Part shown: positions 16,954 through 56,500 of the stretch, piece after piece
How positions within the stretch are numbered: position 1 is the stretch's first letter
Layout of the letters: the number at the start of each line of letters is the position of its first letter
Source: Bacteroidales bacterium
Lineage (GTDB): Bacteria; Bacteroidota; Bacteroidia; Bacteroidales; WCHB1-69
Length of the DNA: 64,000 nt
Direction: 5' to 3'
Assembly: GCA_017525245.1 (NCBI GenBank)
Contig: JAFXTE010000061.1
Coordinates: forward strand, 62,001-126,000
The notes under the pieces: model-generated
Seen by the model: only the letters and a program-made list of their open reading frames with translations
What the model was told of the DNA's origin: nothing
Databases searched by the model: none
Made by a program: the position numbers and the translations under genes

Positions 16954-17027
16954 GCGAAAATTTGTGTGCAAGCCGTTTTTATTCGCGAAAATTTGTATTT
17001 TTGCGCGTTTTATTCGCGAAAATTTGT
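16954..17027 (+). promoter_or_regulatory. Three direct copies of GCGAAAATTTGT at 31-bp spacing
   Basis: The 12-mer occurs at 16954-16965, 16985-16996 and 17016-17027. The last two lie in an identical 19-bp context (TATTCGCGAAAATTTGTAT). The exact 31-bp period, about three helical turns, puts all copies on one face of the DNA. The third copy abuts and overlaps the start codon at 17028, and the -7 box 16996-17003 sits between copies 2 and 3. This is a strong operator candidate for the AbiEi-Fic gene. Confidence 0.75.
16996..17003 (+). promoter_or_regulatory. -7 box TATTTTTG
   Basis: TAnnTTTG followed by CGCG, 24 nt before ATG 17028, inside the repeat array. A second TATTTTTG lies at 16947-16954. 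Transcripts from 16996-17003 would have a very short leader. Confidence 0.55.
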
Positions 17028-18491
17028 ATGGTCCAGCTTGACTTGAATAAAGAAATTGTGTTCGCATCTTCGAATCCGGAGGTGTCAAGGGCTATTTCTC
17101 GATTGCTTTCTGAAGGAAAATTGCGGAAAATAGCCCCTAAAATCTATTCCTCCAACCTCGTAGACAGTCCGGAGAACATTGTCCGTCGCAACATCCTCCA
17201 TATTCTGATGTGGCGTTTTCCCGGGACAGTCATCAGTCACCGAAGCGCCCACGAAATGCGCATCACCTCCTCCGGAAACTTTTTCCTGACCGGAAATTCC
17301 AACCGGAACGTCAAGGATTTGCCAGGGGTGACCGTCCATATTCTCAAAGGCCCTGCCCCGGACGAAAAAGACATGAGATACGGAAACATGTTCATTGCCA
17401 GTGAACACAGATGGATGTTGGAAAACATGCAGCAAACCAAGAAAGAAGGGGAAAGTTCCAAGGTCCTGCCGCAGGAAGTTGTGGAAAAGAAATTGGGAAG
17501 CGTGATGATTGCCGGCGGCGAGGATGCGCTAAACGATTATCGGGACCAATTGCGTGCCACGGCACAGCGTCTCGGCATGGATCGGGAGTTCAAACGAATC
17601 AATATTCTGATTTCGGCCATTTTGGCCACCCATTCCGCAGATATTCTGGCATCGCCTACAATCAAGGCCATGGCCGCAGGAGCACCCTACGACGAGAATC
17701 GGAAAGCTCTCTTTGAGACACTGTTCGATGCCCTGCAAAGTCATCATTTTCTTTCATATCCGACGGTCTCCTCCGAGCTGGAATACCGGAATATTGCGTT
17801 TTACGAAAGTTACTTCTCAAACTATATTGAAGGAACGGAATTCGAGGTGGACGAAGCCCGGAGAATTGTGGAGACTGGTCTGCCAGCCGCCCACCGCTCC
17901 GAAGACTCCCACGACATTTTAGGGACATTCAACGTGGTTTCCAACCGCAGTGAGATGCAGCAATGCCCCGAGTCCATCCAAGATCTAAAGGATATTCTCC
18001 AACGCCGCCATGCCATCCTGCTGTCGGGAAGGCCCGATTTGCATCCCGGACAGTTCAAGGAGCGAAACAATAGGGCTGGAAACACGGAGTTTGTTGATTT
18101 TAAGTTAGTTCCCGGCACATTGGACGTGGGATTCAGCTATTATGCCGCCCTTTCCTCTCCGATGGCAAGAGCTGTCTATATGATGTTTCTCATCAGTGAG
18201 ACCCATCCCTTTGACGACGGCAACGGCAGGGTGGCACGGATGATGATGAACGCGGAGCTTTTCCACGCGGGAGAGGCGAAAATCATCGTTCCTACAGTCT
18301 GTCGGGAGGATTATTTGCTCGCTTTAAGGAAATTGAGTCGTCAAAAAGAGCCCTTTGCCTACCTGAAAGTTATGGATATGCTGCATCGTTTCACCGCATC
18401 GCTCTATGGTCGAGCCACCAATGACATGTTGCAGTACTTATATAAATGTAACGCCTTTTCCGAACCCGATGAGCAACGGCTAAGGTTTTAA
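17028..18491 (+). CDS. AbiEi-like antitoxin domain fused to class II Fic domain
   Basis: 487 residues. Residues about 5-110 look like the DNA-binding region of type IV antitoxin AbiEi: a winged helix (EVSRAISRLLSEGKLRKIAP then KIYSS) and a following segment with FPGTVISHRSAHEMR. Residues about 260-450 are a Fic domain with the inhibitory motif SNYIEG (264-269, fitting S/T-x-x-x-E-G/N) and the active-site loop HPFDDGNGRVAR (393-404). Fic enzymes add AMP or other groups to proteins. Having the inhibitory helix before the active site makes it class II. I chose ATG 17028 because it lies 24 nt from the -7 box. The three 31-bp-spaced sites around the promoter suggest that the AbiEi-like part represses its own gene. 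Confidence 0.88.
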   Translation: MVQLDLNKEIVFASSNPEVSRAISRLLSEGKLRKIAPKIYSSNLVDSPENIVRRNILHILMWRFPGTVISHRSAHEMRITSSGNFFLTGNSNRNVKDLPGVTVHILKGPAPDEKDMRYGNMFIASEHRWMLENMQQTKKEGESSKVLPQEVVEKKLGSVMIAGGEDALNDYRDQLRATAQRLGMDREFKRINILISAILATHSADILASPTIKAMAAGAPYDENRKALFETLFDALQSHHFLSYPTVSSELEYRNIAFYESYFSNYIEGTEFEVDEARRIVETGLPAAHRSEDSHDILGTFNVVSNRSEMQQCPESIQDLKDILQRRHAILLSGRPDLHPGQFKERNNRAGNTEFVDFKLVPGTLDVGFSYYAALSSPMARAVYMMFLISETHPFDDGNGRVARMMMNAELFHAGEAKIIVPTVCREDYLLALRKLSRQKEPFAYLKVMDMLHRFTASLYGRATNDMLQYLYKCNAFSEPDEQRLRF

Positions 18492-18502
18492 TCGAATAAA
18501 AA

Positions 18503-21500
18503 ATGAAGCATACAGTATCACTTATTGCCATTTTAGCCATATTGCTGGCCACCATTTTCACCGGCCACGCCCAAGACCCCGTCACCCTGCAATTCACCGG
18601 TCAGAACCAATACGGGCAGTACGTTCCGTTGAGTTCCGTCACCGTGGAAAACGTCACCCGGCATTGGCAGGAGATGCTCTACTATCCCGACACAACTCTC
18701 TTCATCGGGCAAACCGGCATTGAAGAAATCGAACAACTCAGTGATGGCGTGCGTCTTTTCCAAAATGTGCCGAACCCGTTTGACGGAGTGACCGACTTTG
18801 TGCTCTACCTGCCGGAAGCTTCAGCGGTACTGCTCGAAATCTGCGACCTAAACGGCATCGTAACGGCCACCTACTCAGGTTCTTTAGATCCGGGAAGCCA
18901 CCTGTTCCGGGCGTGGCTGGCAAGTCCGCAGACCTACCTGCTACAAGCCCGAACGAGCGACGGCAACGTCCAAATCAAGATGGTCAACACGGGCAATGGC
19001 GGACAGAGCCGGATGGAATATCTCGGCAAGGATGACACGCATTGGGCGGGAAAGTCGGGTGGCGATGACAAAGGGAGCACCGATATGCCGTTTTCCTTCG
19101 GCGACTGGATGCTGTATGTGGGCGACGTCCATTTGGCGGGAACGGATTTCACCAGTGATCCGGTGCTTCAGATGCAAAACAGTTCGGAATTGATCACGCT
19201 TCCGTTCAACTTGCCGCTGCCCACCGTGACGACCGAAGCCGCGACCAACATCACGCCCACGGAGGCCAAGCTGAACGGTTTGGTAGTGGAAACCTCCGGG
19301 TATCCTGTTTTCAGCCGCGGTTTCCTGATCACCGACAACGCCCAGTTGGTCGGGGCCTCCGACTACACGGACGGCGCGGGCGGCGGAAGTTTCCATTATG
19401 AGGTCAGCGGCCTGCAGATGGGCACCCGCTACTACTACCGGGCCTATGCCAGGACGGCGTTGGGGACCACCTTCGGGGACATCCTCTACTTCGACACGCA
19501 GTCGGATCTGCCGGAGGTGCACACATTCATGGTGACGGACACCGCAATCCACGGGGCGGTCTGCGGCGGCAATGTGACGTATGACGGCGGCAGCGCCGTG
19601 ACGATGCGCGGTGTCTGCTGGAGCACGACGCAGAGCCCTACCTTGAGCAACATCCACACCAGCGACGGCAGCGGTGTCGGCAGTTTCACAAGCCACATCT
19701 TCGGCTTGTACGCCAACACCACGTACTACGTGCGGGCATACGCCACCAACAGCGTGGGCACGGCCTACGGCGAGGAGCGCAGTTTTACCACTCTGACTTC
19801 CGACACGGTCATAGGTCCGTTCTACTGCGGCATAGACTCAGTGGCCGACTACGACGGCAACCGCTATCCCACGGTCGAAATCGGCACCCAGTGCTGGATG
19901 AAGGAGAACCTTCGCTCCACGCACTATCCCGATGGCATGACCATCCCCGAGTACCCGTCTTCCTATGACAATTATCGAAGAGCACCCGGAGACAACAGTG
20001 GCAATGTGCCCATTTATGGTTACCTTTACAATATGGGGGCAGCAATGCATGGAGCTAACGCAAACGACTCCAATCCCGACGGGGTGCAAGGAATTTGTCC
20101 TGAGGGATGGCATATACCCAGTTGTACTGAATCCGAACAGTTGATGAATTTTGTGGGTAGCCAAAGCCAATATACTTGCAACGGCAACAACATATCCAAA
20201 GCATTGGCCTCCACCACCCGATGGAAAAATGGCGCAGGAGTGACCCCTCCTCTAAGTTTGTGTTCTCCTAAGATGGATTTGCCTTCCAACAATGCCACCG
20301 GTTTTTCTGCGCTGCCGGCAGGCTTCTTTTCCTGGAATTTTTACGGCCATGATGAAGCCCGTTTCTTCTGTTACGATTCCTTTTCGTTTTTCGGATCGGG
20401 GCTCGGCGATGGCGGCCAGGACACCGAGGAAAAGACGTTCCGTAACTGGGGGGATATTTCCTTCAACAGTGGTTACGATGTTGTTTCCGTACGTTGTCTT
20501 CTAAATGATTCGGGGGTGGACAGCAGCACGGCTGTTTTGCCTGTCGTGTCGCTTACAACCCTCGACGACATTGGTGCCTCTTCGGCCTCCTGCATAGGTT
20601 TTGTGACGGCCAGCGGCGGATCGGCGGTAACCACAAGAGGATTTTGTTGGAGCACCTCCCCAAGCCCTACCGTGGGTGACAGTCACACTTCCGAAGGCAT
20701 CGGCACGGGCCGCTTCAACAGTGAAATCTCCGGCCTTTCGCCTGGCACCACCTACTATTTGCGACCTTACGCCACCAACGATGTGGGTACTGCTTACGGT
20801 GAGGAACGGAGTTTCACCACCTATTTTGCCGACTCCTGTGGCGGCACTACGGTGACAGACTACGACGGCAATGTCTATCGCACCATTCCCATCGGGCAGC
20901 AGTGCTGGATGCGGGAAAACTTGCGCACCACACATTATGCTGACGGGACCGCCATCGCCTTTGGAAGCGGCAGTTCTACCACGACTCCCTATCTGTATGC
21001 CCCAAATGGTAACAACTTAACCGTGCCCGAGTATGGCTACCTTTACAATTGGGTGGCCGCGATGCATGGTGCCGCCTCCTCAGAAACCAACCCGAGTGGC
21101 GTGCAAGGCGTGTGTCCTACAGGATGGCATGTGCCAAGCAATGCGGAATGGCTGCAACTGATCTCCTATGTCCGTGGCCATAACGAATATTGGTGCGGTG
21201 GTGACAGCACCAACATAGGAAAGTCGTTAGCCTCCACAAAAGGATGGTGCTACTCCGACTCGGAATGTGCAGTGGGCAACGGCCCTGCCACAAACAACAC
21301 CACGGGATTCTCGGCTTTACCTGCTGGTTGGACAGGTGCAGCAAGTTTCTATGATAAGGCAGTCTTTTGGACGACCACCCAATATCAAAGCTCTTCTTAT
21401 TCTACTTTTTACGCCGGATTTGAGGCCAATGATTTGGGATTTTGGGGTCTTATTGGAGTAGTCGGCAGCATATTTGGACTAAACTTGTCTTCTGGAGCTT

Positions 21501-21523
21501 CCGTCCGCTGCCTCCGCGATTAG
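18503..21523 (+). CDS. Surface protein with two FISUMP domains and FN3-like modules
   Basis: 1006 residues. Signal peptide (MKHTVSLIAILAILLATIFT, then GHAQ). Residues about 80-165 (LFQNVPNPFDGVTDFVLYLP, then SPQTYLLQARTSDG) resemble a T9SS C-terminal sorting domain but lie near the N-terminus, a layout I recall in other FISUMP proteins. FN3-like modules lie at about 235-430 and 680-775 (GVCWSTTQSPTLS and FCWSTSPSPTVGD repeats, each ending AYGEERSFTT). FISUMP domains (Fibrobacter succinogenes major paralogous domain) start at about 445 (YPTVEIGTQCWMKENLRSTH) and 783 (YRTIPIGQQCWMRENLRTTH). Probably a surface or extracellular adhesin. Its TAG overlaps the TAA of the convergent kinase gene by 4 nt. 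Confidence 0.88.
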   Translation: MKHTVSLIAILAILLATIFTGHAQDPVTLQFTGQNQYGQYVPLSSVTVENVTRHWQEMLYYPDTTLFIGQTGIEEIEQLSDGVRLFQNVPNPFDGVTDFVLYLPEASAVLLEICDLNGIVTATYSGSLDPGSHLFRAWLASPQTYLLQARTSDGNVQIKMVNTGNGGQSRMEYLGKDDTHWAGKSGGDDKGSTDMPFSFGDWMLYVGDVHLAGTDFTSDPVLQMQNSSELITLPFNLPLPTVTTEAATNITPTEAKLNGLVVETSGYPVFSRGFLITDNAQLVGASDYTDGAGGGSFHYEVSGLQMGTRYYYRAYARTALGTTFGDILYFDTQSDLPEVHTFMVTDTAIHGAVCGGNVTYDGGSAVTMRGVCWSTTQSPTLSNIHTSDGSGVGSFTSHIFGLYANTTYYVRAYATNSVGTAYGEERSFTTLTSDTVIGPFYCGIDSVADYDGNRYPTVEIGTQCWMKENLRSTHYPDGMTIPEYPSSYDNYRRAPGDNSGNVPIYGYLYNMGAAMHGANANDSNPDGVQGICPEGWHIPSCTESEQLMNFVGSQSQYTCNGNNISKALASTTRWKNGAGVTPPLSLCSPKMDLPSNNATGFSALPAGFFSWNFYGHDEARFFCYDSFSFFGSGLGDGGQDTEEKTFRNWGDISFNSGYDVVSVRCLLNDSGVDSSTAVLPVVSLTTLDDIGASSASCIGFVTASGGSAVTTRGFCWSTSPSPTVGDSHTSEGIGTGRFNSEISGLSPGTTYYLRPYATNDVGTAYGEERSFTTYFADSCGGTTVTDYDGNVYRTIPIGQQCWMRENLRTTHYADGTAIAFGSGSSTTTPYLYAPNGNNLTVPEYGYLYNWVAAMHGAASSETNPSGVQGVCPTGWHVPSNAEWLQLISYVRGHNEYWCGGDSTNIGKSLASTKGWCYSDSECAVGNGPATNNTTGFSALPAGWTGAASFYDKAVFWTTTQYQSSSYSTFYAGFEANDLGFWGLIGVVGSIFGLNLSSGASVRCLRD

Positions 21524-26993: not shown

Positions 26994-29900
26994 CTACTGG
27001 GCTAAGGAAGAAACAACCACTTTCTTGGTGATGATAGCATCGCCAGTACGAACGGTCAAGATATATGAACCGACACTGAGGTTGTTGACACCAAACTCGA
27101 AGTAGTAGTTATCGTTGTCGATAAAGGTCTTACCAGCATAAATCTGCGTACCACTGAGAGAGGTCAGCGTAACTGTAGCCTCACCGCTCATGTTGTGGAC
27201 ACGAGCCTTAAGAGTGGTGGTGATAGCAGGAGCCGGATTCGGCCAGACTTCCATATCAGGAGCAACCTCGGAAGCATCCACTGTGATAGCAGGAGCAAGT
27301 TCAGGAGCACCAGGAAGAGTTTCAGGCTCATAAACAGGACCCTCCTCAACTGAAATATGGATAGAGTCAACAGCAATCAAACAAGGATCACCTTTTGCAT
27401 ACCAGTGACCACCAATCAGAATACCACCGTTAGGATCAATAGCTCTGGGAGAAATAGTATTATCAGCCATGCTCCAACCCTCAGCTTGGTCAATATGAGG
27501 ATTCTGCCAGTTGTCTCTATAAGTGGTAGAATACAACTTGAAGATAACAGTGTATTCACCACCAGACAGGAACGGAGCAATCGTTTGAGTGACCGGACGT
27601 TGAGCAAGGAAGTGCATCCACAAGTCATCATAGTAGTTCGTGGTAGTCAAGAAGCTCAAATTACTATACGGGAAGTGGTTACCATAGTAGTTGTTCACAC
27701 TCGGGAAATCTTCAGCTGCGTATGCACTTGCACCGAAATAGTAAGATACATCATGCATATTACCGATTGTACCGCCAGGATTCAGCACTTGGAAGTCCAT
27801 TTCATTCTTGGTATTCCAGATGAATGAAGAAGCCCCACCAGCACCAACAGTAACTGTACTAATGTAATTCTCAATATGAGAAGCAGTCAGAGGAGTATGG
27901 TTGTCATACGGGCTTCTGTTGGTAAGAGCAACACCATTACGGTAGAACTCATACTCAACCCAAACGAGCGTATCGCTCTTAAGACATTCATCATTCACCT
28001 TCCAGATATACTGAAGACCTTCACCTGTAGAGCTAGAGAACTCATTCGTAACTTCACCATCCATAGTGGTAAAGATGAAGCCAACTGAATTGGTGATAAC
28101 CACTGATGCGGAACCAGGCTCACTGGTCTCACAACCATTTTCGTCAACAGCCGTAACGGTAACGGTGTGGACACTTGAACCACCCATACAGAGGATATCT
28201 TCAGGATTAACGTGAAGAGTAGCCGAGAACTCATTTGAAGTCTGTTCAACAGTATCACCATCGTCCAGGACGAAGAAGTAATTAGCAAAGCCTTCCGTAG
28301 CGGTGAACACATCAGCGACATCGTCATCACAACCACCTTCGGGAGCTGTGAGCGTAATTTCAGGAGCCGTAATGACATGCAACGTAGCCGTAGCCGGGAC
28401 ATCACCACAATCAGTGTGAACTGTCACAACGATATTGGCATTATTATACTCAGCACCATAAGTAGCAGTTGCTGAATAAGCCTCACCATTGATTGTCCAA
28501 GTAGGTTCGCCATTCACAACGTTAGACGGATCAGTTACAGATAAATTAGCTTGAGCAAGGTCAACAGTGTTACCAGCGCAAATCGTAATGTCATCAATTT
28601 CAACTGTGGGCTTGTCAAGAATTTCAAGAGCAATAGTATCAGTAGTGATAACATCGCCACAAGAAGTAACCCACTTGTAGTAAACCTCAATAGCGCTGTT
28701 TACAGGAGTAGTGGATGAAATTTCTGTATCATCAGTCATCGCATTCAAAATGAACCAACCTTGAGAAGCAACAGTTGCATTATTAATTACAAGCGTAGGA
28801 GCGGTTTCAATGAAGTAAGAGAACTGACTACCGCGGCAAGCAGCTTGCATCACAGGAGCAGTAGGTGTCCAAGTAGGAATGTTCAGATCAACATCAGCCG
28901 TGTCATTTCCACAACCTTCTGCACTGACAGCAATAACAACGAGTTTACCACCATTATAAGGAAGGAGGCTCTCAAATGTCGTTGTTTCAGGAGTAATAAC
29001 ATGACCTGTGCCAGTAATATCCTCACCCTCTGCAAAGACTTTGTAGATAACTTCGCCTTCAGTATCAGTAGCGGAATGCCAAACAGGAGTGTCAGTGACC
29101 ACATCAGATACCATAGAAGTACGGCACATTGTACCATTCACATTAACAGTAACTTCAGCAGCGTCGGAGAGACCGATTTGGAATGCACCAACAGTGTCAG
29201 AACCGCATGCATTAGTAGCATAGTACTTAACATTGATAATGGTATCCTTAGCAAGTTCCTTAATTTCAGCCATAGTGATAGCCTCGTAAGTGTCTTCAGC
29301 ACCAGCGTTCTCAACAACGAGTAACCAACCGTTAGCGGTAATCGGAGAACCGTTCGGCAACACATAACCGGTCAGGCCTGCACCAGGAATCGGAGATTCA
29401 ACTCCCAAAATGAGAGGTTCACCAGTACCAGTGTTACCACAATAGTATTGATTGAAATCGGCATCAAATTCAGATACGCAATCCATCAACGGATCAGGAT
29501 TCAACACGATAGTAGGTTTATCACTAACTTCGATGGTTGTTGCAGGAGTAGTGTACTGACCGCAGTGATTTGACAACACATAGTACAAACTTGCACCATT
29601 GTATGTATAATCAACTGTCGTGGTAATATCAAATTCCACATAATCGGTAGCACCCGGCATCTTAACGTATGCAACGGCCGTGACATCATCTCTGTCAACG
29701 CCATTGGTAATCTGCCAGCTGGTAGTCAAAGTTTGATTAGCACAAATTGCATCAACGGAAACGGTACCAACAGGAATCGTATCTACAACAAGTTGAGTCA
29801 GGATGGTGTCTGAACCACAATTGTTCTTAACGATGAATCCGAAATACTTGTCATTATAAGACAACTTAACAGGATTCATCAGGTAAGAAGTACCAGCAAG

Positions 29901-32900
29901 ATTCTCTTCAAGAACAGTGACAATCACGTTGTCAGCATCGGTGGAATCAACGAGGATGACATTAACTGTATCAACAGTTGCATCATGATGGTTGATAACA
30001 TAAGCAGGAACATTAATTTCAACTTGTCCACCAGCACAGAGTGTATCAATTGCAAGATCGGCGGTGAAGGCCGGGATAGAATCAATATAGAAATTGATTT
30101 GTTGCTGAGCAGCACAATCAGCATCGCCAGAATTGCATTCAATAACCACGTTAACAGGATCAACACTGTAATCGAATGTGTAATTCATGTCGGTGACAAC
30201 TGTACCATTGACATAATAGGTCGTATCAGCAGCATTTGTGATTGTGACATTCTCCATAATGTCAGAAAGAGTTACACCATAACAGTAAGCATCTTCAACT
30301 GCATCAGCATCAATAGCAGGAACGCCGAGGACAGTGATGTTATAGGTTACGATGCTGTCGCAACCCTCGGCACGGGCGATAGTGTCAGTGAATGAAGGAA
30401 CAACATAAGGATATTCAGCTGTACCTGCAATCAATTCGGCCAAATCTTCGGTACCGATAGCATCAAACATCTTAGCATCATTCACCTCATCGAGAGCAGG
30501 ATCTTCAGAGAAGAGGTCACAAACTTCGATGTCAACAGTGTTACGGACGAGAGGATTGATGACAAGGTTGAACAAACCAGTAGCATGACATCCATTCGTA
30601 TCAATCACATCAAGACAGAAGGAAACATTCTTATTGAATTTCCACTTGTTAGGATCGCTTGCGTATGCGGCAACAGAGTCAGGTGTAGAGACAAGGAACT
30701 CATACTCAGGATTAATAACAGCTGTATCCGTCACATGGTTCATAGTCCACCAAGCTTGTGCCCAACCATTATGAACAACACCGATGGTAAGAGATTCATT
30801 CTCACAAACCTGAGTTGAATTGCCAGTGATAGGCACCAAATCAACAGTGTACTGAATAGGATGAGCAGCATATACACAGACTTCAACTCTTCTGGCTGTA
30901 GAACAACCAGTAGCGTTATTAGTGGCGGTTACAGTGTAGAAGCAGCACATTTCCTGATCGGTAGCTACAGGAGCAGAAGCACCTTCGAAATAGGTGTTGT
31001 GACATTCCTTATGCCATCTGTAGGTGAAATCGCCTTCACAATCAGAGGTGGCAGTAGCAGTGATCCAAGCATTCTCCTCATTGAGACAGTACTTACGCAG
31101 ATCAACGTCAATCTCAGTATTGCAATTGTCATCAGTAGGAACTTCAAACGTTGAATCAACTTCGCAACCGGAATGAATTTCAATAGCCGTGACAGTGTGG
31201 AATCCAGAGAGAGAATTGAATGTCCAGGTAGCAACCACATCTGTGGTGTCATTACCATGGTCGAGAACAAATCTGAACTCAGCAGGATCAAATGTCGTAG
31301 TTGTAGCACTTACTGTGATAGTACCATCATACAAACTGTCAACACATGCATGGTTAGCCGTGACTTGATGATTAATAGTAATATCGTTAGGAGCAGTGGT
31401 GATTACAATAGAGTCGAAATCATTGTAAACACAACCTGAGATAGTATCATAAACAGTGAAATAGTAAACTCCGGCACCCAGACCAGTGAACAAACTGTCG
31501 TTCTGATAGGTCACACCGCCATCAATGCTATACTTATAGACACGGTTTCTCGGGTAAAGAAGTTCAGGAATATTAGGATCGAGAGGCAGGTGTGAATAAT
31601 CAAATTCAGCAGGAATGTAGGAAGTATGTAATTGAATTTCACCATTATAAGGTTCAACACAATGGGTATTCATTGTAGGAACACCAGTCAGAAGAACGGT
31701 GTCACGTCCGAGTTCGACAGTAATCGTATCAGCAATAATACAACCGGTACGGAGATCCTGAACTTGGACATAGTAGAAGGTGTCAATCAACCAGTAGAAT
31801 CTGTTGATAAGGTCATCATAGTTGACATTCACGTCAGAACCAACTGCGAAGCTATCCTCAGCAGTGTGGTAAGCGTAGTAGTATGAATAATAGTAGTATT
31901 GAACTTCATCGTAAGGAGGCATAACAGTGATAGTACCATTACCCGGTTTGTTGAATGTACCCACACAATAGGTGTTAGGTGTCTGTTTGAGAATGAGATC
32001 TTGCAGATCTTGTTGTTCAATCAGAACTGAACCTGAATCAACACACATGAAGTTGTCAATAACCTTATAGTTATAAACACCTGCATTCAGGCTGTCAAAT
32101 ACTACAACTGCGTTAGTAGCTACAACAGTGTCTTCAGCAAGAATAACAGTATATGTCATACCAGCAGTGTAATTAGTAATGGTGAAGGTCACCTTACCGT
32201 CATAGTTATGACCAGCAACAGCAGGGTCACAAATGGTATTCTCAACAGCGACGTTCGTAACCACAGGAGGATTAGAAGCATCAATAATGTTGAACAGAGA
32301 ATCAGTTTGACAACCGTTAGCGTCAATAGCTCTGATTCTATATTGACCAACAGCCAAATGAGTAGGATCAGTAATTTCTACCCAAACGTCAGCGACATCC
32401 GTTAACATTGCATATTGGTAAGTGTAAGTAGCAGGACTCGGAGTAATAGAACCATTTACGAGATTAGCGTCATTGTCGCAATACTGATTATCATGTTTAA
32501 TGAAAGTGAACACAGGATTGCTTGTGTTGTTTTGCACTCTCTTTGTAACAGTCTTCGTACAACCAGTGATTGTGTCAGTACCAAAGACTGAATATTGTCC
32601 CGGATGCAAACCATTGAGCGTTGTGCTCGGACCAGCATAAACAACTGAATCGTTAGAAAGATCTGTAACAACAAAGCGTACATTAGCCTTTGTGAACGAG
32701 AGCTTGCCATTGAACGGAGCAACACAATGCGTATTTGCATTTTGATTAACCGTAAAGTCAAAACCATTAATGGAATTAATATGAACAATACGAGGAGTAG
32801 AACACTCTGTGGTATCATTCTCCTTAATTACAGTATAGTCACCAGGAGCAAGGTTATGATAAGGATAGAGGACTGGAGCGCCATTGGCATCAAACACATA

Positions 32901-35900
32901 GTAGGTGTAACCAGGTTCAGCATTGATATTAATCTGACCGTTTCCATTTGCGGTACAATAAGTAGAAGCAACTGAATCAATTTCGTTGTGGAATACAGGA
33001 TACGTAATCACCTCACCAACATAAACGGGGAAGGTGGTCTCACAACCAAAGTCAGTAATGATTAACACCCAATAGGTGTGGTTACCAGCAAGTTCATCGA
33101 AAATGATAGAAGTAACAGGAACTGAATCGTCCCATGAAGGGATTTGAGTGATAATAGAATCAATCAGGTTAATTTGCTCCTCTTCATAGTAGAGTTTATA
33201 GCTATAACCCTTAGGCATGTTTTTCAAACGGATAAGACCGTTATAAAGCTCAACGCAACGGGTATTCGGGAATACTTCATAATCAGGAATAGGAAGTGTT
33301 TCGTGAACAGTGACAGAAACAGTGTCAGTAGCCACACAGTTCACGGAGTCGATAGCCGTCACTTTGTAAACATAGACAGAAGTGGAAGAACCGGCTTCAA
33401 CAGTATCAATGTTGGAGAAAGACTGGCTGTGGGACAAGGTATCAACACCTTTAGACCAAGACCAGCTAACTTGACCAATAGCAAGAGAGTCGACGGCTGT
33501 GAAATTGAAGGTAGCCGGATCGCAATCTTCGCGAGGAGTAACAGATGCGCGGACATGGATTCTGTCAGGATAAACCAATGCTCTGAACTTGTCCGTAATC
33601 TTAAGGGTATCTTCACCGCATTGTGAAACGACATACACGGTGACATCGGTATCTTGTGTCAATTCTTCGTCAGCAGCAGGTTCTTGCCAAATTGCTTTAG
33701 GAGGCCAGATACCGCAGAAATATTGAAGGTTGCCCACCACATAATGGGTGAAGTCACCAACTGTCATTCTACATTGTTCCTCAAGAGGTCTGATATCATG
33801 GTGAATGCCACCAACGTATTCAGGTGCCGTATCTTTCACAGGAACCCAAATGGAATCCACAGCGGTACATCCGTAAAGGTCAGTTACGAAAACTTGAGCG
33901 TCATAAAGATAGGTACAGCTGTCAGGAACAATCCAAAGACCTGTTGTATCTTCAACAGAAAGAACATTCAAGCTCTGGGAAGTAGTCCATTGATAAGTAA
34001 GATTCGGAATAGTCTGGGAAGGATTGGAAGCATCGCGAGCAGCAAGCCAAACGATACCTACGTTAGGAGTATAAGAACCCTCCCATACAACGCCTACATT
34101 AGGAACGTATGTATAAGGCGGCTGGCAAACATTGTTTTCGTGAGGAACGATCACAATATTGGGAGCAGCATGGACATCCACAGTAGCATAATCAGAAGAT
34201 TTGCTACAACCATAAAAATCGGTGACTGTCATATTGACATGATAAACTCCAGCCGCAGTGGGAACCACGTATGTGTTCACTGAATCTTTGTTGCCGAAAT
34301 TGATTATTGAATCAGCCTCCAGGCTACCCCATTGGAAATGCAACGGATGAGCCACATCGAAATGGTAACCGAAATCAACCAAAGTAGAATCAAATGAGAG
34401 GAATGCGGTGTCACCGAAACAGATCACGGGATCAACCGTAACATTCGGAACGATAAGCGTATCGGGTTCAAACCAGAAAGCCAACGTATCGGCCTGATTA
34501 CCGCAATCATCCTCAACAACAACCTCAACGGTCAGCTGGTTACCTACGAGATCTCTGAAAATATCCGTGCTATCGTATGCAACCACATGACCGAATCGAG
34601 AAGATTCCTCCCAATAGAATTCGGCGTGATTCATAAGATATGCAGAGTCGAATTCCACGCAGTTATCTTGCACTTTACCAAGGAATGCCATAACGAACTC
34701 TTCCTTGGTAAGGGAGTTGAACGTACAGTTCATACCACGTTTCGGTTGAAGACGTTCGTAAATAGGTCTGTTCAACGTACCCACGAAATACGGAGCAACC
34801 TGGTCGTGAGCGGTGAATGTCTGTGTGAACGTGGAAGCGTTACCACAGTTATCATAGAACGTATAGGTTCTCACCAACACATTCTCACAAGCACTTAAAT
34901 CATAAGTGGTATCCTTGCAGGTGAAGTTGGCAATTTCGCCGCAATTGTCATAAATAGTTGTCAAGCCAGCGAAACCATCGAGAGTCTTGATGGTATCAGG
35001 ACGATTGACACCTTCAAAGTCGCACTGATTCCGTGTTGCTTCCCAAGTAGCGGGATTAACAACAGGGGCAATAATGTCCTTAGCGATGAAGGTAGCGGTA
35101 TCCTTCACGAAACAACCATTGGCATCCGTAACCGTATAATAAAGGTTATAGATACTGTCACACACAAAGTCAACAATCTTGGTATAAGGCTTATTATACG
35201 TGGTGGTCTGTTGGTTGTTCGGAGAGGCCAACACCGAATTGTAGTCTGCATCAAAATCGGAGGTTTGGTTTACTGTGTAAGGGAACTCCGTCTGTGTCGA
35301 GGTAACCGTCATGGCAAAATCCACATTATCAGGATGCGGGCAAACGGTATCCAAATAACTGAGGACAATTTCCGGAGTTTGGTGGAACGTAAGGGTCACC
35401 GTTGCATGAGCAGCTGAATAGCAATCGCTCACAGAGTTGTAAGCTTTCACCGTAAATGTAATGGTACGGTCAATATTCGTTGCCGGTCTGAGAGCAGTCA
35501 GATCAACAGGGTAAGAGTCACCTGTGTAAACTGAATCGCCGTTAAGGAACCACACGCTCGTATTAGAGCAGTTGTAGGTGTCGTTGGCACGGCTGACCGT
35601 AAGGGTCATCGTAGTGGCTTCGCTCTCGTTACAGATATCGTATGAACCACCCGTAGGAGCAGGAAGCTCTCTGATAGTCACACTGATAAGAGCGGCCGGA
35701 CCAGTACATTCCACTATTTCGGCACAGGTATGATAAATGTTGACCTGACGGACATAGTAGGTATGTGTACCCACGGTAGTGGGAGCAGCGGGGACTGTTG
35801 TAGTCCAGCCCGTATTGCCGTTAAGAGACCATTCAAGTCTCACAGAAACAACACCTTTGTTGGCAGTGTCAGCCAAAGTCACCAATGAGTTCAGATCAAT

Positions 35901-37052
35901 ATCTGTGCATTTGCAGACAGCAAGATTTTGGGTTTGCACTTGCGGAGTCTCACGCACAAAGAAATGGAAGCGGTTCACGCTGTCGGTATGGAAATAGTAG
36001 CAATCTGAGGCAGGATCATCACCTCTAAATTCACCGAAGACAACATTGGTGTCAGGCATAGTAACATCAAAGTGATAAACCGGACGGCCGTAGTCAACAG
36101 AACCACCCTCGCACACTTCCATACAATCTTCGCCGAAAGTAGGATAGCCTATGGTATCTTCCACTATGACATCGCCGCAGCAGGATTGGTGACCACCAAC
36201 AAAATCGGTCTCGGTATAAGTACCGTCATTGCTGGGTCTCAGTCTCCAGAATTCATTTTGCCAAGGAGTACCACCTGTACGTTCACGTAAGCGCATAACC
36301 AGTTTGTAGTTACCAGCTTGTTTCCAATCTAAGTAAACAATGTTTCTAGTTTGTTCGAAGAAGTCAAGATAGAAATAGTCATGATTCTGACTGTAAATGT
36401 TAACTTGACCAGCAGCTGGGACAATCTGTCCGAGTGCGGTCAGCACTGCCATAGGAGTACCTTGTCCAACGTGCATAGCGCCCGGGTAATTCGTCCAAGG
36501 GCTACAAGGGTTGAAATTTCCTTGAATGTGGTCATAGATATTATCACCACTATTGATGGCTTGGTCTTCGCAGTAGCCAAATCCATCTTCAACCTGGCCA
36601 CCCAACCAACCAATGGACTGACATGCACCATCCTGGTTGAGTTTCGCGTAATACGTGTAAATGTAAAAATTCACGTAATCGGAAAGATTGGCATTCACCT
36701 CTTCCCATTCGCCAGTAGTCTCGTTTAAGCGCAATAGCACCCAGTCAAGTGATACTTGTGTCTTGGGATCGAGACCGCACGTATTGCAGAAATGCAATTC
36801 GTACATCTGCTGTTCTCCTGGCAAAACGTTTGATTTAAATACGCCCGAGTTGTAGTAATGACCTGTACCCAGCGTATGAACCAATGGTAATTTGCCATCG
36901 GGCGGCATATTCACAACACCATAAATGGTATCGGGTTGAAGATTCTCAATCCAAAAACCACTTGTACAGCCATTGCCATTTTGCGCCCTAACGCCGAAGC
37001 TGAAAAGCCCCAGCAGAATGCTTAGAAAGCAAATTGATAATAGTTTTTTCAT
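26994..37052 (-). CDS. Giant secreted protein with SprB-like repeats and T9SS sorting domain
   Basis: 3352 residues. Signal peptide (MKKLLSICFLSILLGLFSFG, cut after VRAQ). The middle holds many beta-sandwich modules. From about 1250 to 2050 these repeat a pattern NT-(R/H/Y)-C-V-x-x-(Y/F)-(N/D)-G-x-I, then L-x-A/P-G-x-Y and D-x-x-x-G-C, as in SprB-type adhesin repeats; Cys-rich modules continue to about 2850. The C-terminus (about 3270-3352: EVWPNPAPAITT, then LSVGSYILTVRTGDAIITKK) is a type A T9SS sorting domain, so the protein should cross the outer membrane by T9SS and be attached to or released at the surface. It is monocistronic with its own promoter box (37167-37174) and terminator, and seems more AT-rich than its neighbours. 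Likely an adhesin. Confidence 0.9.
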   Translation of the reverse strand: MKKLLSICFLSILLGLFSFGVRAQNGNGCTSGFWIENLQPDTIYGVVNMPPDGKLPLVHTLGTGHYYNSGVFKSNVLPGEQQMYELHFCNTCGLDPKTQVSLDWVLLRLNETTGEWEEVNANLSDYVNFYIYTYYAKLNQDGACQSIGWLGGQVEDGFGYCEDQAINSGDNIYDHIQGNFNPCSPWTNYPGAMHVGQGTPMAVLTALGQIVPAAGQVNIYSQNHDYFYLDFFEQTRNIVYLDWKQAGNYKLVMRLRERTGGTPWQNEFWRLRPSNDGTYTETDFVGGHQSCCGDVIVEDTIGYPTFGEDCMEVCEGGSVDYGRPVYHFDVTMPDTNVVFGEFRGDDPASDCYYFHTDSVNRFHFFVRETPQVQTQNLAVCKCTDIDLNSLVTLADTANKGVVSVRLEWSLNGNTGWTTTVPAAPTTVGTHTYYVRQVNIYHTCAEIVECTGPAALISVTIRELPAPTGGSYDICNESEATTMTLTVSRANDTYNCSNTSVWFLNGDSVYTGDSYPVDLTALRPATNIDRTITFTVKAYNSVSDCYSAAHATVTLTFHQTPEIVLSYLDTVCPHPDNVDFAMTVTSTQTEFPYTVNQTSDFDADYNSVLASPNNQQTTTYNKPYTKIVDFVCDSIYNLYYTVTDANGCFVKDTATFIAKDIIAPVVNPATWEATRNQCDFEGVNRPDTIKTLDGFAGLTTIYDNCGEIANFTCKDTTYDLSACENVLVRTYTFYDNCGNASTFTQTFTAHDQVAPYFVGTLNRPIYERLQPKRGMNCTFNSLTKEEFVMAFLGKVQDNCVEFDSAYLMNHAEFYWEESSRFGHVVAYDSTDIFRDLVGNQLTVEVVVEDDCGNQADTLAFWFEPDTLIVPNVTVDPVICFGDTAFLSFDSTLVDFGYHFDVAHPLHFQWGSLEADSIINFGNKDSVNTYVVPTAAGVYHVNMTVTDFYGCSKSSDYATVDVHAAPNIVIVPHENNVCQPPYTYVPNVGVVWEGSYTPNVGIVWLAARDASNPSQTIPNLTYQWTTSQSLNVLSVEDTTGLWIVPDSCTYLYDAQVFVTDLYGCTAVDSIWVPVKDTAPEYVGGIHHDIRPLEEQCRMTVGDFTHYVVGNLQYFCGIWPPKAIWQEPAADEELTQDTDVTVYVVSQCGEDTLKITDKFRALVYPDRIHVRASVTPREDCDPATFNFTAVDSLAIGQVSWSWSKGVDTLSHSQSFSNIDTVEAGSSTSVYVYKVTAIDSVNCVATDTVSVTVHETLPIPDYEVFPNTRCVELYNGLIRLKNMPKGYSYKLYYEEEQINLIDSIITQIPSWDDSVPVTSIIFDELAGNHTYWVLIITDFGCETTFPVYVGEVITYPVFHNEIDSVASTYCTANGNGQININAEPGYTYYVFDANGAPVLYPYHNLAPGDYTVIKENDTTECSTPRIVHINSINGFDFTVNQNANTHCVAPFNGKLSFTKANVRFVVTDLSNDSVVYAGPSTTLNGLHPGQYSVFGTDTITGCTKTVTKRVQNNTSNPVFTFIKHDNQYCDNDANLVNGSITPSPATYTYQYAMLTDVADVWVEITDPTHLAVGQYRIRAIDANGCQTDSLFNIIDASNPPVVTNVAVENTICDPAVAGHNYDGKVTFTITNYTAGMTYTVILAEDTVVATNAVVVFDSLNAGVYNYKVIDNFMCVDSGSVLIEQQDLQDLILKQTPNTYCVGTFNKPGNGTITVMPPYDEVQYYYYSYYYAYHTAEDSFAVGSDVNVNYDDLINRFYWLIDTFYYVQVQDLRTGCIIADTITVELGRDTVLLTGVPTMNTHCVEPYNGEIQLHTSYIPAEFDYSHLPLDPNIPELLYPRNRVYKYSIDGGVTYQNDSLFTGLGAGVYYFTVYDTISGCVYNDFDSIVITTAPNDITINHQVTANHACVDSLYDGTITVSATTTTFDPAEFRFVLDHGNDTTDVVATWTFNSLSGFHTVTAIEIHSGCEVDSTFEVPTDDNCNTEIDVDLRKYCLNEENAWITATATSDCEGDFTYRWHKECHNTYFEGASAPVATDQEMCCFYTVTATNNATGCSTARRVEVCVYAAHPIQYTVDLVPITGNSTQVCENESLTIGVVHNGWAQAWWTMNHVTDTAVINPEYEFLVSTPDSVAAYASDPNKWKFNKNVSFCLDVIDTNGCHATGLFNLVINPLVRNTVDIEVCDLFSEDPALDEVNDAKMFDAIGTEDLAELIAGTAEYPYVVPSFTDTIARAEGCDSIVTYNITVLGVPAIDADAVEDAYCYGVTLSDIMENVTITNAADTTYYVNGTVVTDMNYTFDYSVDPVNVVIECNSGDADCAAQQQINFYIDSIPAFTADLAIDTLCAGGQVEINVPAYVINHHDATVDTVNVILVDSTDADNVIVTVLEENLAGTSYLMNPVKLSYNDKYFGFIVKNNCGSDTILTQLVVDTIPVGTVSVDAICANQTLTTSWQITNGVDRDDVTAVAYVKMPGATDYVEFDITTTVDYTYNGASLYYVLSNHCGQYTTPATTIEVSDKPTIVLNPDPLMDCVSEFDADFNQYYCGNTGTGEPLILGVESPIPGAGLTGYVLPNGSPITANGWLLVVENAGAEDTYEAITMAEIKELAKDTIINVKYYATNACGSDTVGAFQIGLSDAAEVTVNVNGTMCRTSMVSDVVTDTPVWHSATDTEGEVIYKVFAEGEDITGTGHVITPETTTFESLLPYNGGKLVVIAVSAEGCGNDTADVDLNIPTWTPTAPVMQAACRGSQFSYFIETAPTLVINNATVASQGWFILNAMTDDTEISSTTPVNSAIEVYYKWVTSCGDVITTDTIALEILDKPTVEIDDITICAGNTVDLAQANLSVTDPSNVVNGEPTWTINGEAYSATATYGAEYNNANIVVTVHTDCGDVPATATLHVITAPEITLTAPEGGCDDDVADVFTATEGFANYFFVLDDGDTVEQTSNEFSATLHVNPEDILCMGGSSVHTVTVTAVDENGCETSEPGSASVVITNSVGFIFTTMDGEVTNEFSSSTGEGLQYIWKVNDECLKSDTLVWVEYEFYRNGVALTNRSPYDNHTPLTASHIENYISTVTVGAGGASSFIWNTKNEMDFQVLNPGGTIGNMHDVSYYFGASAYAAEDFPSVNNYYGNHFPYSNLSFLTTTNYYDDLWMHFLAQRPVTQTIAPFLSGGEYTVIFKLYSTTYRDNWQNPHIDQAEGWSMADNTISPRAIDPNGGILIGGHWYAKGDPCLIAVDSIHISVEEGPVYEPETLPGAPELAPAITVDASEVAPDMEVWPNPAPAITTTLKARVHNMSGEATVTLTSLSGTQIYAGKTFIDNDNYYFEFGVNNLSVGSYILTVRTGDAIITKKVVVSSLAQ

Positions 37053-52022: not shown

Positions 52023-53570
52023 ATGATTATGAACTACATAAAACAAACCTACGGCGAAAACACCACCTGCGATTTCAAGGAGGCAGTGGAGCGCAAGCAG
52101 CCCAAAAGCTGGCTAAAAAGTGTCAGTGCTTTTGCCAACACTGTTGGAGGCATGCTCGTTTTTGGTGTGAACGACGATGGAGAAACTATAGGATTAGAGA
52201 ATGCGAAAGCGGATGCCGAGTTCATTAGTGACCGCATTAAAGTTTTTATGGACCCCGTTCCGGAATTTGAAATGGTCACCAAGCCCGCCGGCAACGGCCG
52301 TTTCTTATTGGAATTACATGTTTCAGCTGGTGATATGACACCGTACTATTATGTGAACAGCGGCACTCACTCCGCTTTTATTCGCATAGGTGACGAAAGC
52401 GTGATTACCAACGCGCACCAATTGAGCGCCCTCGTGTTGAAAGGCCGCAACCGCACCTACGATTCTTTGGTTACGGAATATCATTTGGGAGAGTTGACTT
52501 TCGACACTTTGGCCAAGACCTACCAGAAGCAAACGGGACAACCTTTTGAGGATAAGCTGTTGCAATCGTTTTCTTTGGTGACCGATGACGGCGTGCTTAC
52601 ACAGGCGGGCGTGCTGTTCTCCGATCAATGTCCGTACCGCCATTCCAGTCTTTATTGCACACGCTGGAACGGATTGGAAAAAGATGACGCCCTCGATTCG
52701 CGCGAGTATCAAGGCAATTTGCTTACATTGTTGGATGCAGGTGTGCAGTTCATGACTTTGCACAACAAGAAAGGCTGGATAAAGTTGCCCAACCGCCGTT
52801 TGGACACGCCCGATTACTCTGACCGCGCCTTGTTCGAGGCCTTGGTGAATGCGCTCATCCACCGCGACTATTCCGAGCTGGGCAGCGAGGTGCACATCGA
52901 CATTTACGACAACCGGTTGGTCATCTACTCGCCAGGCGGCATGTTTGACGGCAGTCTGATACAGAACCGTGATTTGAACGAGGTGCCATCCAGACGCCGC
53001 AATCCCATTTTGGCTGATGTGTTCACGCAGTTCGGCTACATGGAGAAACGTGGCAGCGGTCTGCGCAAAATCCGCAACGAAACCGCCAAACTGCCCGGAT
53101 TCACCAATGAAAAACGGCCTACTTTCCGCTCGCAATACGAATCATTCTTTACCGAGATTCTGAATAACAATTACAGTGATGAGAGTCAAGGTGAGGTTCA
53201 AAATGACACTCACGGTGGCAGCATAAATGTCGCAATAGAATTATCTGAAAGACAGAAACTTATAATCACAGCCATACAAAATGTCGCACAAAATGTCGCA
53301 CAAAATGTCGCACAAAATGTCGCACAAAATGTCGCACAAAAACACAAGGTAAACACTCAATACCTTGCTGAAACATTAGGTGTGAACAGAAAAACAATTC
53401 AGCGAGAATTGGTGGATTTGGTTGAAAAGCATATTGTTCAATGGGTTGGTTCTGACAAAACTGGCCATTGGGAAGTGACAAGTCCCCCGAATGTCCCTCA
53501 AGATGTCCTTCACAATGTCCCCCAAGATGGCAGTATAAATGTCGCAAAAAAAGCAAGTAAACATAGATAA
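52023..53570 (+). CDS. Schlafen/AlbA_2-type putative regulator with NVAQ tandem repeat
   Basis: 515 residues. Residues 1-130 are a Schlafen-type AlbA_2 domain (CDFKEAVERKQPKSWLKSVS, AFANTVGGMLVFGVNDDGE). Residues about 260-345 match the GHKL-like C-terminal part of RecG-like regulators (ALFEALVNALIHRDYSELGS, NRLVIYSPGGMFDG, FTQFGYMEKRGSGLRKIRNE). Residues 419-438 are five copies of Gln-Asn-Val-Ala from a perfect 12-bp repeat, then a winged helix (LAETLGVNRKTIQRELVDLV). More Asn-Val-(Ala/Pro) motifs occur around it. The type IIG restriction-modification gene follows after 12 nt, so the two are one operon. Such proteins are often encoded beside restriction systems; this one may regulate or assist the enzyme. 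Starts at 52023 and 52029 are both possible. Confidence 0.85.
   Translation: MIMNYIKQTYGENTTCDFKEAVERKQPKSWLKSVSAFANTVGGMLVFGVNDDGETIGLENAKADAEFISDRIKVFMDPVPEFEMVTKPAGNGRFLLELHVSAGDMTPYYYVNSGTHSAFIRIGDESVITNAHQLSALVLKGRNRTYDSLVTEYHLGELTFDTLAKTYQKQTGQPFEDKLLQSFSLVTDDGVLTQAGVLFSDQCPYRHSSLYCTRWNGLEKDDALDSREYQGNLLTLLDAGVQFMTLHNKKGWIKLPNRRLDTPDYSDRALFEALVNALIHRDYSELGSEVHIDIYDNRLVIYSPGGMFDGSLIQNRDLNEVPSRRRNPILADVFTQFGYMEKRGSGLRKIRNETAKLPGFTNEKRPTFRSQYESFFTEILNNNYSDESQGEVQNDTHGGSINVAIELSERQKLIITAIQNVAQNVAQNVAQNVAQNVAQKHKVNTQYLAETLGVNRKTIQRELVDLVEKHIVQWVGSDKTGHWEVTSPPNVPQDVLHNVPQDGSINVAKKASKHR
53277..53336 (+). repeat. Five perfect tandem copies of CAAAATGTCGCA
   Basis: Five identical 12-bp units within the Schlafen-type gene, encoding (QNVA)x5. 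Since 12 is divisible by 3, copy-number change would alter linker length without breaking the frame. Confidence 0.97.
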
Positions 53571-53582
53571 AACCAAGTAAAT

Positions 53583-56500
53583 ATGCACGAATCTATTAAA
53601 ACCTATATAGAAGAGCTGAACAAGTGTTATGCTACAGGGGTGGCCCGCGAGCACGCCTACCGTCCGGCATTGCAGAACCTCATGTGCGGCCTGCTGCCCA
53701 AGAGTTATACCATTGTCAACGAACCGGCACGCACCGACTGTGGCGCACCCGATTTCATCATCCTCAAAGGCGACACTCCGATGGCGTTCATCGAGGCCAA
53801 AGACCTGCAAGACACCGATCTCGACGGCAAGAAGGAACACAAGGAGCAGTTCGAGCGCTATCGTGCATCGCTCGATCACATCATTTTCACCGACTACCTA
53901 GACTTCCATCTTTACGAAAACGGCGAATATGTGGATGCCGTCCGACTGGCAGACATCCGTGGCGGGAAGATTGTGCCCATTGAGGAATCCATCGACAAGT
54001 TCTTGCAAATCGTCAAGCGGCTGGCCGATGCCGCCCCGCAGCGCATCACTTCGCCCGCAAGACTTGCGAAAGTGATGGCCTGCAAAGCCCGCTTGTTGGC
54101 CAACGTGATTGAGCAGGCGTTAGAGAACGACAAAGAGCAGACCTCGGAATTGGCCCTCCAGATGAAAGTGTTTCGCGAATACCTTATCCACGACCTGAAC
54201 GAGAAAACCTTTGCCGACATCTACGCCCAAACCATTGCCTACGGTCTCTTCTCGGCACGCCTGAATGACAGCACGCCAGAAGATTTCTCGCGAAGCGAGG
54301 CCAACGAGCTGATCCCGAAAAGCAACCCGCTGTTACGCAGGATTTTCAACGACATTGCCGGCTATAATGTGGACCATCGCATCGCCTGGATTGTGGACGA
54401 TCTGGTGGCCGTTTTCGGCGTAACCGACATGGACACGGTGATGAAAGACTTCGGCGAGGTCACCAAGCGCAACGACCCCATGATGCACTTCTACGAGGAC
54501 TTCCTTGGCCAATACGACCCGCAAACTAAAGCTCAACGTGGTGTTTACTACACTCCGCAACCTGTGGTCGATTTCATCGTGCGCGCTGTGGACGACATTC
54601 TGAAACGCGACTTCAATCTACCCATGGGTCTTGCCGACAATTCGATGATTGACCATGAAGTTGTGAACGACCAGTATTCCGGCAAGAAGGGTGAGAGCAA
54701 AACTCTGAAAAAACGAATGCATCGAGTACAGATTCTCGACCCAGCCACGGGCACAGGCACCTTCCTTGCCACCGTCATCCGTCAAATCCATGCCAACATG
54801 GAAGGACAATGGGGCGCCTGGGGTAGCTATGTGGAGCAGCATCTGTTACCCAGATTGAACGGCTTCGAACTAATGATGGCCTCCTACACCATTGCCCACC
54901 TCAAACTCAACATGATACTTCGCGAGACTGGTTTTATTCAACAGAGTGACAAGCGTCTTCGTGTTTACCTTACCAATAGCCTTGAAGAACACAACGTCGA
55001 CACAGGCACTCTCTTTTCTGCCGCTATCAGTCAAGAGAGTAACGAAGCAAGCCACATCAAACGTGACTGCCCAGTAATGGTGATGATTGGCAATCCGCCG
55101 TACAGTGTTAGCAGTTCAAACAATAGTGACTATATCTTACGTCTCCTTAATGACTACAAAAAGGATCTTAACGAACGCAATATTCAGCCTTTGTCGGACG
55201 ACTATATCAAGTTCATCCGCATCGGGCAGGAATATATCAGCCGAACCAGCGAAGGTATATTGGCATTCATTTGCAACAACACCTTCCTCGATGGCATCAT
55301 CCACCGCCAGATGCGCAAGGAGTTAATGCAGAAATTTGATGAGATTTATATCCTTGACCTACACGGCAACAGCCGCAAGAAAGAAACCGCTCTTGATGGC
55401 TCTAAAGATGAGAATGTGTTTGATATTATGCAAGGTGTAAGTATTAATATCTTCGTGAAAAAGCCAAATGACAAAAATGAACACAAATGCCAAGTTTTCC
55501 ATTTTGACCTCCTCGAAAGCCGAGAGAAAAAATACGAATTTCTGCAAGGTCACAACCTCGAAGAAATAGGTTGGAGCAGATTGCACCCCGAAGAACCTTA
55601 CCAATTCTTCGTGCCGAAGGATTTCTCCCTGCAAGAAGAATACGAAAAGGGGTTCAAACTTGATGAGTTGTTCATCAATAATGTGAGTGGAATAAAGACA
55701 TCTAACGACAAGCTAAATGTCAAAGATACTAAACAAGATTTAGAAGAACTAATCAATGGTGCTCTTACCTTGTCCGAAGAAGAATTTAGGACGAAGTTCA
55801 ACGCTGGAAAAGACACTCGTGACTGGTCGGTAAGACGAGCACTTGATGATGTTAGGGAAAACAAAAACACATTGAAAATAGCCCCTTATTGTTACCGCCC
55901 GTTTGACAACAAATTCATCGTCTATACAGGCCGAACGAACGGAATCGTGGCCAGGCCACGATTCCGTTCGTTGCGAGCCATGTTATCTCCTCTGAATTTC
56001 GCGTTGTGTACAATTCGAATCAATCGGGATTACAATTTTGCAATTCTTGTAACAAATCATATTACTGACAAAACATTATTGTCCTCAAAAGACGACATTA
56101 ATCTTTTCCCACTATACAATTATAATCTCGGCGAAGCCGAGTCGATTTTTGAAAAAAACGAGATCTTGGTGCCAAATTTCAATGCCAAAATCGTCACAAC
56201 AATCGAATCTTCGATAAAAGAAGAAGTTTCTCCTTTAGAACTCTTCGATTACATCTACGCCGTACTGCATTCGCCGAACTATCGTGCTAAATACAAAGAG
56301 TTCCTAAAAATCGACTTCCCACGCATTCCATTTCCTGAATCGACCGAGGAGTTTCACCGTTTGGCGACTATCGGAGGTCAACTGCGCAAACTGCACCTTA
56401 TGGAAGACGTTCCGCCAACCAAGTACGCTCAATACAACAATCCTGGCAGCAACATGGTTGACAAACCCGAATACAAAGGCGGCAACGTGTGGATCAATAA

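Follow-up and report, generated by a model that had tools for sequence, protein, structure and literature searches.

The 64,000-nt stretch analysed here (the window; positions 62,001 to 126,000 of contig JAFXTE010000061.1 in the Bacteroidales assembly GCA_017525245.1) encodes a 487-residue protein that joins an AbiEi-like N-terminal region to a Fic domain, and its gene is preceded by three copies of GCGAAAATTTGT (Table 1). The copies are all exact and each step is exactly 31 bp, as a preliminary description of this DNA had it; Tandem Repeats Finder, run independently, recovered the array at 16954–17030 (period 31, score 103). Their placement around a promoter element and the start codon was likewise borne out: the first base of TATTTTTG, which we take to be a -7-type box of Bacteroidota (consensus TAnnTTTG), is the last base of site 2, and the last base of site 3 is the one directly before the ATG at 17028. 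Upstream the frame stays open as far as an ATG at 16878, yet the start codon is probably that at 17028, judged from the homologues of 59–69% identity, which start there or one codon off. Since 31 is not divisible by 3, the array is no protein repeat. The 3.68-Mb genome holds five exact copies of GCGAAAATTTGT, three of them in the array and the other two each single (one intergenic, the other within the opening codons of an unrelated open reading frame, ORF), and no copy of the reversed pattern. With up to two mismatches allowed the window shows no excess of the 12-mer (12 occurrences vs. 10.2 expected), so the signal of the array lies in exactness and spacing, not in number.

Table 1. Features of the fusion gene and of the DNA before it (window positions).
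Feature	Position	Strand	Details
Operator site 1 (candidate)	16954..16965	+	GCGAAAATTTGT
Operator site 2 (candidate)	16985..16996	+	GCGAAAATTTGT, 31 bp after site 1
-7-type promoter element (putative)	16996..17003	+	TATTTTTG, between sites 2 and 3
Operator site 3 (candidate)	17016..17027	+	GCGAAAATTTGT, 31 bp after site 2, abuts start codon
AbiEi-like/Fic fusion gene, 487 residues	17028..18491	+	
AbiEi-like region, residues 12–144 (winged helix and start of second AbiEi domain)	17061..17459	+	hhalign, PADLOC AbiEi models
Inhibitory motif SNYIEG, residues 264–269	17817..17834	+	YFSN(Y/F)IEG in 41/41 clusters
Fic catalytic motif HPFDDGNGRVAR, residues 393–404	18204..18239	+	Pfam Fic; HPFxDGNGR in 40/41 clusters

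Fic was the only Pfam family above cut-off in a scan of the single protein (PF02661, E 1.1e-11, 45.8 bits against a cut-off of 24), and the same scan with NCBIfam gave no match above its cut-offs. The Fic domain forms the C-terminal half and carries both SNYIEG and HPFDDGNGR. The latter agrees with the family motif HPFx(D/E)GN(G/K)R, and SNYIEG is the (S/T)xxxE(G/N) motif that, lying N-terminal to the Fic motif, defines class II. Both motifs had been pointed out before, and both hold across the family, which we counted as 41 clusters: the inhibitory motif is conserved in all of them, and the single cluster departing from HPFxDGNGR has one residue altered. When the full-length profile was compared with solved structures, FICD, BtFic (3cuc) and SoFic were matched through the Fic part. 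The locus does not have the separate small antitoxin gene of a type II (class I Fic) toxin-antitoxin module; the inhibitory motif lies within the same chain as the Fic domain, and the ORF upstream, just 97 bp from the gene, is of 308 codons.

By profile comparison the N-terminal part is a remote homologue of AbiEi, as had been proposed, a relation that becomes clear solely with the family. The window protein on its own matched PADLOC AbiEi weakly (E 0.0084). Among the 41 members, the N-terminal part matched PADLOC PDLC02225 in 23 (best 3.5e-5) and PDLC02269 in 17 (best 7.6e-7, the best E across all models), both at E ≤ 1, and Pfam AbiEi_4 in three (best 1.2e-4). Aligned by hhalign to 24 Bacteroidota AbiEi-type proteins, the 41 N-termini gave a probability of 96 over 131 columns, taking in the winged helix and a portion of the second AbiEi domain; control comparisons gave 0.1% for reversed AbiEi, 0.3% for N-termini of other Fic proteins and 75% for DUF6088, and E-values of these one-against-one comparisons include no library size. 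The winged helix and the domain following it are remotely homologous to those of AbiEi antitoxins. The AbiEi-AbiEii operon of type IV AbiE was not found at the locus: the next gene (18503–21523) is by eye a FISUMP-like surface protein. A stand-alone form of the N-terminal domain was sought and rejected; 31 rows in 296 genomes cover the domain, of which 29 are Fic-fusion matches and two (G438 and G640:C96) are truncated by contig ends.

The upstream regions of the family were then compared with those of other genes. There were 74 homologue loci, from which L071 (broken start), L072 (insufficient upstream sequence) and L124 (broken frame) were dropped before counting; L060, with one internal stop, was retained within its cluster, the partial L083 stayed outside the set, and nine rows of the phylum search without loci were left out. 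Start codons were picked by script, and those of L094 and L106 are probably too far downstream. As controls, 17 of 22 loci with other Fic genes were usable (L013, L014, L026, L028 and L031 dropped out), as were 26 of 28 DUF6088 loci, although for at least four of these (L142, L143, L146 and L152) the ORF used was a neighbouring or partial one. Of the AbiEi_4 rows 25 of 31 were given and 23 were usable, many below the family cut-off and some from other ORFs; of the AbiEi (PDLC02269) rows 25 of 26 were given and 24 were usable, with doubtful starts in L199 and L209.

We looked for sets of three 12-nt sites, letting each spacing vary from 24 to 47 bp, in 100 nt upstream plus 32 nt of the gene for the family and in 130 nt upstream for other genes. 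In 36 of the 41 clusters each spacing came to 31 or 41 with a tolerance of 1 bp; this was so for 48 of 1025 dinucleotide shuffles and for 13 of 104 other genes from the same loci and the window. Both spacings were exactly 31 or 41 in 24 clusters, against 7 shuffles and one other gene. This search and the lag test reject a chance origin of the site spacing. The preliminary description had suggested looking for the 31-bp phasing upstream of homologues, and phasing as such is shared by these 36 clusters, while 31 followed by 31 proves to be a special case of the closest relatives: the layout of about 31 + 31 occurs in 10 clusters, seven of which are the window and its relatives at 59–69% identity, and that of about 31 + 41 is commoner, with 25 clusters. 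A fusion gene with no repeats upstream, named earlier as evidence against the idea, is not what these 36 clusters have; the other five are out of phase. More than three copies occur in two of the seven window-type clusters (L061 and L065). In the 31 + 41 type the third site lies over the ATG in 11 clusters, just behind it in nine and before it in five. In L012, L066, L070 and L084 the third site includes the ATG, so that operator letters and first residues (such as MEKN and MENI) constrain each other. TAnnTTTG was found at about -45 to -15 in 12 of 24 hand-picked Bacteroidota-type clusters, compared with 5 of the 104 other genes.

Unlike the spacing, the letters of the sites change by clade (GAAAATTTG, TGAAAAATTTG, GCAAAAATTTG, TGGAAAA, CCCGAA, CACGACA, GTTGACATTA). 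A fixed-letter motif was therefore rejected, and spacing alone is comparable across the family. Many clusters share no more than 34–50% identity with the window protein, at which distance idle upstream DNA would be randomised; constant spacing with drifting letters thus suggests selection on geometry. As plain strings, pairs of GAAAATTTG at a distance of 16–24 bp turned up at 18 places, spread over 13 of 295 genomes of the order; two of these places are the window's. The repeats are not a general feature of AbiEi genes as far as the control sets go.

At a threshold of E 1e-60 homologues of the fusion occur in 15 of 104 genomes of the family and in 39 of 395 genomes of the phylum, with partial matches among the latter (the window's own genome included in both). 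Plasmid records gave 21 matches, 19 at ≥80% coverage, with hosts in Bacteroides, Phocaeicola, Hymenobacter and alpha-, beta- and gammaproteobacteria; 14 loci, some partial, are on viral contigs, and phage records gave no match. Regions were retrieved for 13 of the 21 plasmid records, 10 of them annotated. Within these 10 no AbiEii neighbour is named and no neighbour recurs across different organisms; near-identical neighbourhoods were seen within the Bacteroides/Phocaeicola pair and within the Hymenobacter plasmids (ParA), while two of the regions have a HipA-domain gene close by.

We consider it likely that this class II Fic protein represses its own promoter from the phased sites by way of its AbiEi module, and is self-inhibited. 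The product would be a class II Fic enzyme, a probable AMP-transferase, behind an AbiEi-type, antitoxin-like DNA-binding module. Its winged helix would bind three sites that are whole helical turns apart, so several molecules would line the same face of the helix across the promoter and gene start. As the sites in the window straddle the -7-like box and the gene start, occupancy should block transcription, giving negative autoregulation by a single chain, and the chain's own SNYIEG helix would keep the Fic enzyme inactive. From sequence, self-repression of the gene is predicted as very probable and self-inhibition of the protein as probable; we infer binding, cooperativity, repression, AMPylation and inhibition for this protein, and any growth arrest on its release. 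The earlier label of a single-polypeptide toxin-antitoxin was overstated, with no separate antitoxin gene present and toxicity of the Fic part hypothetical; a self-repressing, self-inhibited Fic enzyme fits better. We hold it to be quite unlikely that promoter DNA itself is the antitoxin, such that molecules on three in-phase sites (62 or 72 bp, six or seven turns) would lock each other in the inhibited state and loss or displacement of the complex would both induce and activate Fic.

Several observations weigh against autoregulation by an AbiEi-type module. Characterised AbiEi operators are inverted repeats, of 23 bp and 3 bp (or 13 bp) apart, whereas those of the window are direct repeats on the same strand (PMC3985639, PMC7319586; what is said here of published systems is drawn from portions of the papers cited). 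NCBIfam TAA_AbiEi stayed below cut-off (8 of 41 members, best 0.012), and a search of the PDB with the N-terminal sequence profile missed the solved AbiEi-type structures (best E 0.16, unrelated), which is why we call the relation remote. The five clusters out of phase in the free search are L032, L069, L113, L114 and L117. In the lag test for in-phase repeats L032 (p 0.99) and L123 (p 0.48) gave no signal, L099, L101, L116, L118 and L120 gave p 0.066–0.096, and 5 of the 104 other genes reached p < 0.01. Operator distance, which could be used for 32 of the 41 clusters, correlated with protein distances at 0.50–0.67, tracking the Fic domain (0.67) as closely as the winged helix (0.64); given the Fic distance the winged-helix term was 0.17 (reached by 17 of 500 permutations), and the converse term, for Fic with winged-helix distance accounted for, was larger (0.32). 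Co-variation therefore gives the winged helix no preference over the Fic domain as the part that reads the sites.

That operator divergence follows the whole protein would also suit sites belonging to another, host-encoded regulator. Such a regulator would need to accompany the gene family in every lineage, as the layout travels with it, in clade-specific letters, across classes, phyla, chromosomes, plasmids and viral contigs; moreover, the window's own genome has just the two further, single copies of GCGAAAATTTGT, and the fusion protein itself has an AbiEi-type domain. We regard this alternative as unlikely. Still lower, and very improbable, we place bent A-tracts or duplicated promoter DNA with no dedicated binding protein. 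Each copy in the window's clade does contain AAAATTT or AAAAATTT, 31 bp is three turns and the repeats touch the promoter, but other clades hold the spacing with letters such as GTTGACATTA, CACGACA and CCCGAA, and a lag-31 repeat is near-absent among the other genes (1 of 104). The frequent position of the third site over or just behind the ATG, and its contact with the ATG in the window, could instead reflect translation control by repeats working in the mRNA. This we find scarcely credible: the inferred transcription start comes after sites 1 and 2, spacings in multiples of the helical turn are not needed by RNA control, and folding of the window leader is unremarkable (z 0.33).

Compatible with autorepression from the phased sites is a housekeeping rather than a toxic role of the Fic part, as an AMP-transferase or deAMPylase whose dose is kept low by feedback. 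Either activity is possible in a class II Fic protein, as in CbFic2 (PMC10628234). The patchy occurrence in genomes of the family and the presence on plasmids are more like mobile defence or toxin-antitoxin genes, and we give this role a tentative place, short of an even chance.

In SoFic-type class II Fic proteins the winged helix is C-terminal. SoFic (PDB 3eqx, 3zcn) shares the class II Fic core with the fusion and differs in its N-terminal domain, with the DNA-binding domain at the opposite end. The nearest parallel in organisation is CccR of Yersinia pseudotuberculosis, likewise one chain with a class II Fic domain, an S-x-x-x-E-G motif and a DNA-binding domain, which represses its own promoter and so shows that self-repression by a class II Fic protein occurs (PMC9755527). 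CccR has a C-terminal helix-turn-helix, a single pair of inverted repeats (10 bp each, separated by 26 bp), and is type VI secreted (PMC9755527), whereas the DNA-binding-type domain of the fusion is N-terminal and AbiEi-like and its sites are direct repeats 31 or 41 bp apart. The CccR paper names AbiEi once, in its reference list. CbFic2 is also a class II Fic protein, with activity altered by DNA bound through its helix-turn-helix domain; that domain is C-terminal and DeoR-like, random DNA was used, and a host histone is modified, while the portions of the paper covered give no specific operator (PMC10628234).

AbiEi of type IV AbiE (Streptococcus agalactiae) and Rv2827c resemble the fusion in a winged helix followed by a second domain, and in several sites over their own promoter with negative autoregulation; AbiEi differs as a separate antitoxin with a nucleotidyltransferase-like toxin (PMC3985639, PMC7319586). 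RptR, encoded in a defence island, is like the proposed fusion an autorepressor with three direct repeats over its own promoter, and differs as a small free-standing repressor with 9-bp repeats and no enzyme domain (PMC12255303). A Streptococcus thermophilus paper handles AbiEi and Fic as separate systems in the portions available. Neither an AbiEi-Fic fusion nor a 31/41 operator was found among the titles and abstract openings listed from the open-access literature (subscription papers and preprints lay outside the search). The fusion with its phase-conserved operator appears to be new; the concept of a self-repressing class II Fic protein is already known from CccR.

Class II is said to make up 80% of Fic proteins, with function and control nearly unknown (PMC9755527). 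The layout offers a testable operator rule for a whole Fic family known from two phyla and from plasmids. By this rule direct repeats stand 31 and 41 bp apart, in most clusters the third one meets, covers or closely follows the start codon, and helical phase remains constant while site letters drift. Clade-specific sites in one geometry would amount to a naturally occurring collection of possibly orthogonal repressor-operator pairs.

A second Fic family was met in the window's genus and family (L013 at G008:C65, L014 at G012:C68, L240–L248 and L250). Its proteins, of 502–506 residues, have an N-terminus that by eye is winged-helix-like and a Fic domain with SLSIEG and HPYMDGNGR. Ahead of the start codon lie direct repeats resembling AAACTAATA, spaced by about 24 bp, which follow a -7-like box in several copies, and a lag of 24 or 48 was among the three best in all 10 readable copies of the 12 matches; the proteins are 89–100% identical, hence these copies are not independent. 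Several DUF6088 promoters (L126–L139, stand-alone genes of the order) have by eye a short inverted repeat of the type TGTCGCAAA...TTTGCGACA over the -7 region, possibly an operator of the DUF6088 genes' own.

Elsewhere in the window, a perfect 12-bp tandem repeat of 5.5 copies (53276–53341) encodes (NVAQ)n within an ORF for an ATP-binding-like protein (52023–53570), beside a 1037-residue ORF (53583–56696) that by eye is N-6 methylase-like. On the reverse strand a 3352-residue ORF (26994–37052) encodes what looks by eye like a secreted surface protein rich in repeats, with a sorting-type tail at its C-terminus.
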